Below, in pieces: positions 13,009 through 44,096 of a stretch of 64,000 nt of DNA. The DNA comes from an uncultured Lachnoclostridium sp. (lineage in GTDB: Bacteria; Bacillota; Clostridia; Lachnospirales; Lachnospiraceae), in assembly GCA_946415315.1 (NCBI GenBank), contig CAMKRZ010000010.1, positions 19,058 through 83,057 of the forward strand, read 5' to 3'. The notes beneath the pieces were generated by a model that was given only the letters and a program-made list of their open reading frames with translations, was not told the DNA's origin and ran no database searches. The translations under genes and the position numbers were made by a program. Each line of letters opens with the position of its first letter. Within the stretch, counting starts at the first letter, position 1.

Positions 13009-14148
13009 ATGAATACGATCGGAACAAGAACAATCGAGACGGAGAGACTCATTTTGCGTAGATACCGGATCGAGGACGCAGAGGATATGTTCCATAACTG
13101 GACGTCCGACCCGGAAGTCACGAAGTTTCTCTCGTGGCCGACGCACACAAGTGTTGACTTCACGAGGAGCCTCCTGACGAAGTGGGTTTCGTTCTATGAG
13201 GACGGAAAGACGTACAACTGGGGGATCACCCTGAAGGGCGAGGACCGCGTCATCGGCAACATCGCGGTCGTCGAGCGCGACGAGCGGACGTGCTCCTATG
13301 AGATCGGCTACTGCCTGGGCAAAGCCTGGTGGGGAAAGGGGATCATGCCGGAGGCACTCCGGGCTGTGATCGACTACCTTTTCGAGGGCGAGAGCGATCT
13401 GATGCGGGTCTACGCAACGCACGACCTGCGCAATCCGAAGTCCGGGCGCGTGATGCAGAAAGCAGGCATGCACTATGACGGCATTTTGCGCGGATCGAAG
13501 AAAAATGTCCACGGGATCCACGACACGGCATACTACTCGGTGCTCCGCAGCGACCGCGTGACGCGGGAGCAGTACGAGGCGCTGTTCACGGAGATGTATC
13601 CGAACTTTTTCGAGAATGAGTATGTCCGGAACATCGCGGAGGATGAGGTTGTGTCGGAGCAGATCCTGCGGCTTGCGGAGTTCGACCCGAACTGCTACGA
13701 GAAGTATTTTCCGGGAAATGTGACGTTCGGTTATTACGACGGTGACATCGAGGAGTTGCGCAAGGCTGTGGCGACCGTGGTCGGTCACTGGCCGCAGTTC
13801 TTCAACGAAAACAGCCGCATTTATTGTGGGTTTGTGGACGGCAAGGTGGCGAGTTTCTGCCTGATCGAAGATTTCGGCGAGCGTGTCGTCAACGGCATGA
13901 CCTGGAAGATCGGCGGACCGGGATGCGTGGGAACGCTCATGGAGTATCGCAACCGCGGCATCGGGCTTTCGATGATCCGGAATGTTACGCAGATTCTGCG
14001 GGAAGAATTTTACGATTACAGTTACATTCACTACACATACGAGCCGCAATGGTACGGGCTGCTGGGCTATAAGACAGTGTTGCAGTGGAACGGAAGCGGG
14101 TTCATTGAGAGTGACCGGATTGCGGAGCGGTTCAGAAGTTACGTCTGA
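13009..14148 (+). CDS. Tandem GNAT acetyltransferase (RimJ-like N-terminal, second GNAT C-terminal)
   Basis: IETERLILRRYRIEDAEDMF...EIGYCLGKAWWGKGIMPEA; C-terminal GTLMEYRNRGIGLSMIRNVTQ. Confidence 0.85.
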   Translation: MNTIGTRTIETERLILRRYRIEDAEDMFHNWTSDPEVTKFLSWPTHTSVDFTRSLLTKWVSFYEDGKTYNWGITLKGEDRVIGNIAVVERDERTCSYEIGYCLGKAWWGKGIMPEALRAVIDYLFEGESDLMRVYATHDLRNPKSGRVMQKAGMHYDGILRGSKKNVHGIHDTAYYSVLRSDRVTREQYEALFTEMYPNFFENEYVRNIAEDEVVSEQILRLAEFDPNCYEKYFPGNVTFGYYDGDIEELRKAVATVVGHWPQFFNENSRIYCGFVDGKVASFCLIEDFGERVVNGMTWKIGGPGCVGTLMEYRNRGIGLSMIRNVTQILREEFYDYSYIHYTYEPQWYGLLGYKTVLQWNGSGFIESDRIAERFRSYV

Positions 14149-41299: not shown

Positions 41300-41522
41300 A
41301 TGAAGATTGACAGACTGATCGGCATCTTGTCGATATTGCTGCTCGGAGGGCGAGGACGGCCGGCTGGTGTTTTCGGAGGATTTTACGAATCGGGAGCAGA
41401 TGATCTCATGGCTTCTGGCGTTCGGTGACAAGGCGGAGGTACTCGAACCGCAGGACGTGCGGGAGCAGATTGCGGAGATTGCGGAAGAAATGATCAAAAC
41501 TTACAGGAGGGACGAGCAATGA
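41300..41522 (+). pseudogene. Remnant of YafY/WYL-type HTH transcriptional regulator (large internal deletion plus frameshift)
   Basis: N-terminal MKIDRLIGILSILL and, in another frame, C-terminal EDGRLVFSEDFTNREQMISWLLAFGDKAEVLEPQDVREQIAEIAEEMIKTYRRDEQ*; TGA overlaps ATG of next gene. Confidence 0.8.
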
Positions 41523-42283
41523 AGTACGACTGGATTGACAGCTATCTGATGGAGAAGACCGGTGTGACACAGGATTTTCAGGAGGAGTGGAATTGGATCC
41601 GTTATCATATCGGCGGGAAAATGTTTGCCGCCATATGCCGCGACGATGACAACCAACCCTACTACATCACGCTCAAGCTGGAGCCGCTTGAGGGCGAATT
41701 TCTGCGCAGGGAGTATGAGGACATCATTCCCGGGTACTATATGAACAAGATTCACTGGAACTCGGTGAAGGTGAACGGAAACGTGCCCGACGATGTCGTA
41801 AAGGACTGCCTCGACCACGCGTACGATGTTGTGCTCCGCAGCTTCAGCAAGAAAAAACAAAAGGAAATCCTGGAGGGTACTCAGGGAACGTTGATTGATC
41901 AACGTTCCCTGAGTACCTCCGGTGGATCGCACGAATGCGCAAAGGAAACTGCCCGCTTCGCGGGCGCGCATTCGGCGGCGATTGACGCAGAATGCGTCAA
42001 TCGATCTAATCTGATCAGTTGCTGCGGCTCGGACTGCAGCACATGCTACTGCTACGGAGAGATGTGTAAGGGATGTGACGCCGTGTGCGGCAAGGTATTC
42101 CACATGCCGGACGGACAGATCTGCCCGATCTATGACTGTTGCCGCAACAAAAAGGGTTATCGGTCCTGCGGCGAGTGCGATGATTTGCCGTGTGACATTA
42201 TCCTCGGAATGCGCGATCCGAGTTTCTCCGACGAGGAGTTCGCGAACAATGTGAAGGAGCGCGTACAGAGGCTGAAGGGCTGA
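41519..42283 (+). CDS. MmcQ/YjbR-like domain plus DUF3795-like Cys-rich domain, interrupted in frame by palindromic element
   Basis: WNWIRYHIGGKMFAAICRDDDNQPYYITLKLEP; SCCGSDCSTCYCYGEMCKGCDAVCGKVFHM; linker encoded by hairpins. Confidence 0.85.
   Translation: MKYDWIDSYLMEKTGVTQDFQEEWNWIRYHIGGKMFAAICRDDDNQPYYITLKLEPLEGEFLRREYEDIIPGYYMNKIHWNSVKVNGNVPDDVVKDCLDHAYDVVLRSFSKKKQKEILEGTQGTLIDQRSLSTSGGSHECAKETARFAGAHSAAIDAECVNRSNLISCCGSDCSTCYCYGEMCKGCDAVCGKVFHMPDGQICPIYDCCRNKKGYRSCGECDDLPCDIILGMRDPSFSDEEFANNVKERVQRLKG
41876..42003 (+). repeat. Three-hairpin palindromic element inserted in coding sequence
   Basis: 20-bp perfect IR 41876-41895/41898-41917; 9-bp IR 41932-41940/41966-41974 enclosing GCCCGC-TTC-GCGGGC; 11-bp perfect IR 41979-41989/41993-42003. 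Confidence 0.88.
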
Positions 42284-42380: not shown

Positions 42381-42409
42381 TTGCTTTTAGCCGTATTTCT
42401 CGGTATAAT
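42381..42409 (+). promoter_or_regulatory. Sigma-A promoter TTGCTT-N17-TATAAT upstream of cardiolipin synthase
   Basis: Read directly, 17-nt spacing, 22 nt before the ATG at 42432. Confidence 0.75.
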
Positions 42410-42431
42410 AGACCCATGGGGGGAAGAGAAT

Positions 42432-44096
42432 ATGGCGAAGGCAACGGTTTACGAACGATACTATGACGACGGTGTTTTGCGGCTGACGAAAAGGCGAAAG
42501 AAAGGGCTTCTTTCGTTCTTTTTCAGCCGCTTTTGGATTTTGTTCTTTCTGATGATCCTGCAGTTCACATTGTTCATCACATTTGTGAACTGGCTCGGAG
42601 ATTTCAAGCCCGTGTTTCGCGTGATAAATGTGATCTTCACGATCGCGATGCTCATATACCTCTTCGCGAGCGATATCGACGCGTCGAGCAAGCTGACGTG
42701 GCTGTTCTTCCTCGCGATCATTCCGATCCCGACATCGCTCTTTCTGTTCTACACGCGGATGGGCTTCGGGCACCGGCGCATCCGGGAGCGCATGGAGTCG
42801 CTGTCTGAGGAAACACTCACGAGTATCCCGCAGGATCCCGCGGTGATGGAGCGGCTTGCGTCGGCGGATGACGGCGTGGACGCGTTGGTGCGCTGCATCG
42901 GGCGAAGCGGGTGCTTTCCGGCGTATGCGGAAGAAAAAACGTTGTATTTTCCGTCGGGGGAGGCATTCTTTGAGGCTGCGTTGGAGGAACTCGCGAAGGC
43001 GGAGAAGTTCATTTTCCTTGAGACGTTCATTATCAACGAAGGCTACATGTGGGGCAAGGTGCTCGAGATCCTGATGGAGAAGGCTTCAGAGGGCGTCGAT
43101 GTGCGCGTGATCTACGACGGTATGTGCGGCGTCACGAACCTCTCGATGGACTACGATGCAAGACTCCGGTCGTTCGGCATCCGCGCCAAGGAATTTGCGC
43201 CGATCCATCCGATCGTGTCATCGAGCTACAACTTCCGCGATCATCGGAAAATTCTCATTGTGGACGGCCGTACTGCCTTCACCGGCGGGATTAATTTCGC
43301 GGATGAATATATCAACCGCATCGAGCGTTTCGGAGTCTGGAAGGACTCCGGCTTGATGATTCGCGGAGAAGCGGTGAGAAGCTTTACGCTGATGTTTCTG
43401 CAAATGTGGAACATCGACGAGCCGACGCCTGTGTGGGAACCGTTTATGAGCGCGCCGACCGGAGACGGAGAAACTGCCGAGAGGGCAACCGGGAGCAAAG
43501 AAACTGTTGAGAGTGTGCCCGAAGGCGAGAATGACTATGGTTCGGACGGTTACGTCATCCCGTACGCGGACTGCCCGGTGGATGAGTACAAGGTCGGCGA
43601 GACGGTGTATGTGGATATGTTAAACCGCGCGAAGCGCTACATTTATGTCATGACGCCGTATCTCGTGCTGGACGGAGAGACGGAGGGAGCGCTGAAATAT
43701 GCGGCGCAGCGCGGCGTGGACGTGCGGCTAATCCTTCCGGGAATCCCGGATAAAAAGTATGCATTTGCTCTTGCGAAATCCTACTACCGTGTGCTTCTCG
43801 AAGCCGGGGTGAAGATCTATGAGTACACGCCGGGCTTCGTCCACTCGAAGGTGTTTTTATGTGACGATGAGAGGGCGGTGGTTGGCTCCATCAATCTCGA
43901 TTTCCGGAGTCTCTATCACAACTATGAGTGCGCTGCGTACCTCTATCGTGTGAAGGGGACGATCGCCGGAGTTCGGGAGGATTTTGAGAAGACGCTCCCG
44001 CTGTGTCGCGAGGTTACCCTCGAGACGATCCGGAAGGAGAAGCCGGGATATGTGTTCCTCGGTTTTTTGATGCGGTTTATCGCACCGCTTTTATAA
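42432..44096 (+). CDS. cls: Cardiolipin synthase (PLD superfamily)
   Basis: Two HKD motifs DHRKILIVDGRTAFTGG and HSKVFLCDDERAVVGSINLDFRSL; N-terminal TM segments. Confidence 0.92.
   Translation: MAKATVYERYYDDGVLRLTKRRKKGLLSFFFSRFWILFFLMILQFTLFITFVNWLGDFKPVFRVINVIFTIAMLIYLFASDIDASSKLTWLFFLAIIPIPTSLFLFYTRMGFGHRRIRERMESLSEETLTSIPQDPAVMERLASADDGVDALVRCIGRSGCFPAYAEEKTLYFPSGEAFFEAALEELAKAEKFIFLETFIINEGYMWGKVLEILMEKASEGVDVRVIYDGMCGVTNLSMDYDARLRSFGIRAKEFAPIHPIVSSSYNFRDHRKILIVDGRTAFTGGINFADEYINRIERFGVWKDSGLMIRGEAVRSFTLMFLQMWNIDEPTPVWEPFMSAPTGDGETAERATGSKETVESVPEGENDYGSDGYVIPYADCPVDEYKVGETVYVDMLNRAKRYIYVMTPYLVLDGETEGALKYAAQRGVDVRLILPGIPDKKYAFALAKSYYRVLLEAGVKIYEYTPGFVHSKVFLCDDERAVVGSINLDFRSLYHNYECAAYLYRVKGTIAGVREDFEKTLPLCREVTLETIRKEKPGYVFLGFLMRFIAPLL

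Follow-up and report, generated by a model that had tools for sequence, protein, structure and literature searches.

The window, by which we mean the whole 64 kb stretch of Lachnoclostridium DNA that was analysed, contains an ORF of 254 aa (41519–42283) that reads in frame straight through an element made up of three hairpins (Table 1). As the original prediction had it, the element lies between a YjbR-like half and a second half. The Pfam family YjbR was matched by residues 12–103, before the element (E 7.6e-23), and DUF3795 was matched after it, weakly and below the cut-off.

Table 1. Features of the fused gene and of the repeat inserted in it
Feature	Position	Strand	Basis
yjbR-like coding region, first half of fused ORF	41519..41878	+	Pfam YjbR; identity to L058
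HP1, perfect 20 bp palindrome with 2 nt centre, left end of element	41876..41917	+	inverted repeat
Inserted repeat, 127 nt replacing 8 nt of the empty site	41880..42006	+	blastn against L058
Element core, match to covariance models R1 and R2	41914..42004	+	R2 98.7 bits, E 1e-19
HP2, 9 bp stem around a 6 bp stem	41932..41974	+	inverted repeat and covariation
HP3, 11 bp hairpin with 3 nt loop, right (3') end of element	41979..42003	+	inverted repeat and covariation
DUF3795-like coding region, second half of fused ORF	42007..42283	+	Pfam; comparison with L058

Inverted-repeat analysis of the window recovered three consecutive inverted repeats over 128 bases (41876–42003), exactly those described earlier: a 20 bp palindrome, a nested pair of 9 and 6 bp, and an 11 bp hairpin. 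The 20 nt arms of HP1 (41876–41895 and 41898–41917) are 100% complementary. HP2 has 9 nt outer arms (41932–41940 and 41966–41974) around an inner GCCCGC-TTC-GCGGGC (41951–41965), and the 11 nt arms of HP3 lie at 41979–41989 and 41993–42003. When folded as RNA, the segment 41866–42015 had a free energy of −91.6 kcal/mol, whereas its shuffles averaged −47.5 (z −11.5), and the opposite strand folds equally far from its shuffles (z −11.6). Nothing comparable was found elsewhere in the window, again as predicted. Among perfect inverted repeats with arms of 12 bp upwards (loop of at most 10), the HP1 palindrome is the only one, the longest in 20 Markov-simulated windows was at most 12, and the only match to R2, the family model described below, is the element core.

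The nearest relative, a Lachnospiraceae MAG (L058), has the same site without the element, and there yjbR and the DUF3795 gene are separate and overlapping. In blastn comparisons, the match between L058 and the window ends at 41879 and picks up again at 42007, leaving 127 nt in the window opposite 8 nt in L058 (1862–1869), with the exact ends of the inserted repeat uncertain by a few nt. The two share 98.9% DNA identity over 41337–41879 and 90.6–98.9% in the flanks closest to the site. The yjbR gene of L058 ends ...EILEGKNE* and the DUF3795 gene starts with ATGAGTAATCTG in another frame, the overlap being a few bases. Two separate genes are also present in further relatives, for example L083, L088 and L111, and a short natural yjbR-DUF3795 fusion without any insert is found in L042, L043 and L047. 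As relatives have either two genes or a short insert-free fusion, we conclude that the long linker in the window is an insertion; the natural fusions also indicate that such a fusion is tolerable. The predicted in-frame insertion, absent from orthologues, was therefore borne out, except that it did not enter a single protein-coding gene but hit the overlap of two and fused them.

Judged by comparison with L058, the yjbR-DUF3795 fusion is new. The ATG of the DUF3795 gene, present in L058, is missing from the window, so that the DUF3795 domain is probably produced solely within the fusion protein. It would appear that a copy of the element landed at the few bases shared by the yjbR stop codon and the DUF3795 start codon, and that the chance length of the element and its lack of stops joined the two into one frame, from which a 254 aa protein would be translated. 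The in-frame fusion looks incidental, and the window provides a clean example of an insertion fusing two overlapping genes. An ORF resembling phospholipase D/cardiolipin synthase (by eye; 42381–44096), which separates the fused gene from a GNAT gene in the window, is missing from the corresponding place in L058.

When the element DNA was used as a query, diverged copies were found in its own genome and in congeners. With R1, a covariance model of the core, 8 out of 22 genomes in the genus proved to have copies, and these include other sequence subfamilies with the same build. A second covariance model, R2, built from 37 copies, was run on 200 genomes from the family Lachnospiraceae, chosen at close to one per genus; 73 had matches, in some cases more than 20. 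The hosts are bacteria of the gut and rumen. The dispersed copies that had been predicted do exist, and the insert, rather than being conserved in orthologues and confined to this locus, is absent from the former and repeated elsewhere. Near-identical copies are found at unrelated loci in G235, a complete single-contig genome, and in G148. In addition to the window site in L058, empty sites were found in close relatives at ybaB-recR, at a GNAT-gene-like site and at a yebC-recN-like site. We are almost certain that the segment represents a single member of a family of small, structured, non-autonomous repeats and that the family is mobile. Its build is HP1–linker–HP2–HP3, it is about 90–235 nt long and non-coding, and it belongs to the Lachnospiraceae.

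An HP1-like palindrome (mean stem 14 bp) is located directly upstream of nearly every core copy. In the remainder of the structure, compensatory changes were found in 23 of 29 pairs, with 97.9% of cells paired; 13 of 19 pairs in the two helices of HP2 and all 10 modelled pairs of HP3 have such changes across copies. The covariation score was 0.595, compared with 0.033–0.088 for slid structures, and was reached by 0 of 500 shuffles, from an alignment that was fitted to the model and so favours the structure. Despite this, the effect size and the shuffles make chance covariation unlikely.

Apart from the window copy, copies sit between genes, after terminators or at the extreme ends of genes. 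The stretch shared among copies in G235, G148 and G036 is only about 90–190 bp, and a longer IS element around the repeat was ruled out. In Rfam, the copies from the window genus had no match at E≤1 and other copies had only chance matches to microRNAs and snoRNAs at E≤3. A known RNA family was therefore rejected, as was a group II intron derivative, for which neither domain V-VI nor any other intron RNA signature appeared in the same comparison. No copies were found on plasmids, phages or viral contigs, the viral scan having used one exact 25-mer. Literature searches did not turn up this repeat, which is not proof of absence, and on the evidence of the literature searched the family is undescribed and previously unnamed. 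Tandem or partially tandem units were seen at L002, L025, L029, L206, L208, L213, L231 and L306. At the ybaB-recR junction, a degenerate copy in G014 (L142), apparently of another subfamily, occupies the same intergenic spot as L024 in G013, which suggests from position that this spot may have been targeted repeatedly. Hairpins of the form GAAAACGCTGAnnnATCAGCGTTTTC also stand alone between genes, with no core, at L125, L128, L134 (tpi-gpmI-like junction), L126 and L133, some of them at the identical place in several species. They may be what is left of the element, or may belong to a separate family of hairpins.

About 41 main-strand copies were scored for their ends in G235. Both ends are present in about 21, among them a short form with an internal deletion, about 12 are without the 5' part only and 2 without the 3' part only, while the rest are mixed. 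Hence, 12 of 14 one-end truncations are at the 5' side (binomial p 0.013), although these counts are small and the classes were assigned by hand after the list had been seen. Truncated copies start at 70, 78, 79, 82, 83, 88, 90, 119, 148, 151, 158, 162, 170 and 176 of 234, and the 3' end is intact in nearly all of the 5'-truncated copies, those starting at 82 and 119 also missing a few 3' bases. As the truncated copies are mostly 93–99% identical to intact ones, truncation looks contemporary with insertion. Further 5'-truncated cases are L395 and L396 in G135.

Across genera, 29 of the 73 copies that have an HP1 start at the T-run of an intrinsic terminator. The corresponding figures were 49/6000 (0.8%) for random positions and 279/4399 (6.3%) for T5 runs, a control that itself contains real terminators. 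The subfamily to which the window copy belongs does not have this preference, and in G235 it is rarely seen. Members of the terminator-associated subfamily themselves finish with a hairpin and a run of T's. Terminator T-runs are the target described for group IIC introns (PMC8919778) and, as with these introns, many copies directly follow intrinsic terminators and share their orientation. However, the present element has no reverse transcriptase ORF and no Rfam group II match, and is only 90–235 nt.

Together, constant 3' ends, scattered 5' truncation and placement at terminators fit copying from an RNA template. The element would be transcribed, and a reverse transcriptase supplied in trans would begin at the constant 3' end. 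The 3' end of the RNA would be joined to the target first and copying would often halt short of the 5' end. The resulting copies would be truncated at the 5' side, in a manner similar to SINEs. Eukaryotic SINEs are also short, non-coding, structured repeats with no ORF, and their combination of a constant 3' end with variable 5' truncation, a feature of SINE-like retroelements, was seen in G235 in small numbers. The present family differs in being bacterial, in having no target-site duplication (TSD) that we could see and in an RNA step that we infer. A scan for reverse transcriptase motifs covered 1.42 Mb of loci and, in G235, 1.1 Mb (35% of the genome) and found none; nor was a transposase partner found in the sampled 35% of G235. 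The general view is that small mobile repeats of bacteria move in DNA form and rely on transposases taken from insertion sequences. For the family described here, small structured mobile repeats, RNA-mediated movement is a live possibility that we place somewhat below an even chance. The broader proposal of a Lachnospiraceae-wide class of bacterial SINEs, spread by target-primed reverse transcription partly at terminator T-tracts, using an enzyme acting in trans and occasionally fusing genes, is more tentative. As a whole, the best explanation, a non-coding mobile repeat that fused two genes by chance and whose likeliest way of spreading is SINE-like and RNA-copied, is in our judgement evenly poised. 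A family that is both widespread and recently active, and that combines constant 3' ends with truncated 5' ends and terminator placement, would be a candidate for RNA-copied bacterial short repeats, and would make such copying directly testable.

Movement in trans as single-stranded DNA by a Y1 (IS200/IS605-like) transposase, in the manner of REPINs and palindrome-associated elements, is unlikely but deserves consideration. The element has hairpins at both ends and, by eye, no terminal inverted repeats (TIRs), the HP1 and HP3 ends not being inverted repeats of each other, and no TSD was seen by eye at the recent junctions inspected. These features suit a Y1 substrate, and the last two led us to reject a classical MITE. 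REP, REPIN and palindrome-associated repeats derived from IS200/IS605 are likewise small, non-autonomous hairpin repeats outside genes with no obvious TSD, and Y1 genes exist in the window genus (G000, G016 and G002). Two equal-scoring ones are present in the window genome (G000:C28:1996-2352 and 13070-13426). However, G014, which has the most copies in the genus (17), is without a Y1_Tnp match, and a RAYT/REP origin was set aside for this reason; a single query also gave no Y1 match in the sampled 35% of G235. Copy orientation follows replication direction in G235, but the bias of 34 of 41 copies to the leading strand does not exceed the one among ORFs (77%, p 0.46), and it was discarded as a sign of a replication-linked mechanism. 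Variable 5' truncation beside a constant 3' end is not what Y1 transposition predicts. Both ends would be expected to be fixed in a REP, REPIN or PATE element derived from IS200/IS605, whereas 5' ends vary in G235. The three-hairpin architecture with conserved unpaired motifs also distinguishes this family from REP/REPIN.

Less probable again is a regulatory or terminator-like RNA, spread by ordinary duplication and kept for transcription end or mRNA stability, with template switching keeping the stems perfect. Many copies adjoin terminators, and two pairs of orthologous copies (L029/L038 and L207/L226) have stems altered on both sides, which fits what is expected from template-switch mutation or selection. 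Template switching is a known mutational route to changes in both arms of RNA hairpins (PMC8794818), and the hairpins described there similarly have perfect stems whose arms change together. There, though, the process operates in RNA genes, while here it would act on top of a mobile repeat. Against this reading stand the almost identical copies that G235 and G148 have at unrelated loci and the empty sites in close relatives, and the neighbours of the copies are in mixed orientation with no common neighbour seen.

The element had also been likened to the protein-coding palindromic elements (RPEs) of Rickettsia, which are hairpin-forming, about 105–146 bp long, dispersed and readable in frame within a gene (PMC2229807). 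The likeness extends to a dispersed hairpin repeat of about 100–150 bp that can be read in frame, as the window copy is, and the sequence does differ, as had been said. However, RPEs recur in many protein genes and have TIRs, whereas essentially all other copies here are outside genes and the two ends are not mutually inverted. Among 69 copies examined, none but the window copy was shown to have a recognisable protein gene on both sides, and none of ten long open frames spanning other copies matched a Pfam family. With this single recognised case, a peptide that is not conserved and separate yjbR and DUF3795 genes in L058, use as an RPE-like peptide is not supported and is very improbable. The label 'protein-coding palindromic element' is thus only partly apt and, as a coding element, the window case is probably luck.

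Copying of the inner HP1 arm from the target flank at each insertion, by a guide-like or snap-back process, would explain why outer HP1 arms in the window genus vary among copies and overlap host gene ends yet pair (L023, L024, L030, L037 and L212), but it has very little in its favour. It was dropped because the arms stay constant from one unrelated site to another in the recent copies of G235 and G148 and in most of those of G036. In the window genus, moreover, the overlapping TGA/TAA belongs to a left-end consensus, TRAGGAAACGCTGAT, read by eye. That the consensus carries its own stop codon fits the overlap of HP1 with host stop codons in this genus. What had first favoured copying from the target was that, at three loci, empty sites reveal that the host sequence overlapping the HP1 arms is old. 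Two copies in G235 (L342 and L344) are chimeric, with an HP1 like that of the terminator-associated subfamily and the body of the G235 subfamily. Finally, the motif CCCCCGGAGAAAGGGAAAGGA immediately precedes the start codon in several different genes, and a -10-like TATAAT is often found ahead of it, at L212, L239-L242 (upstream of a recN-like gene), L252 and L256-L258.
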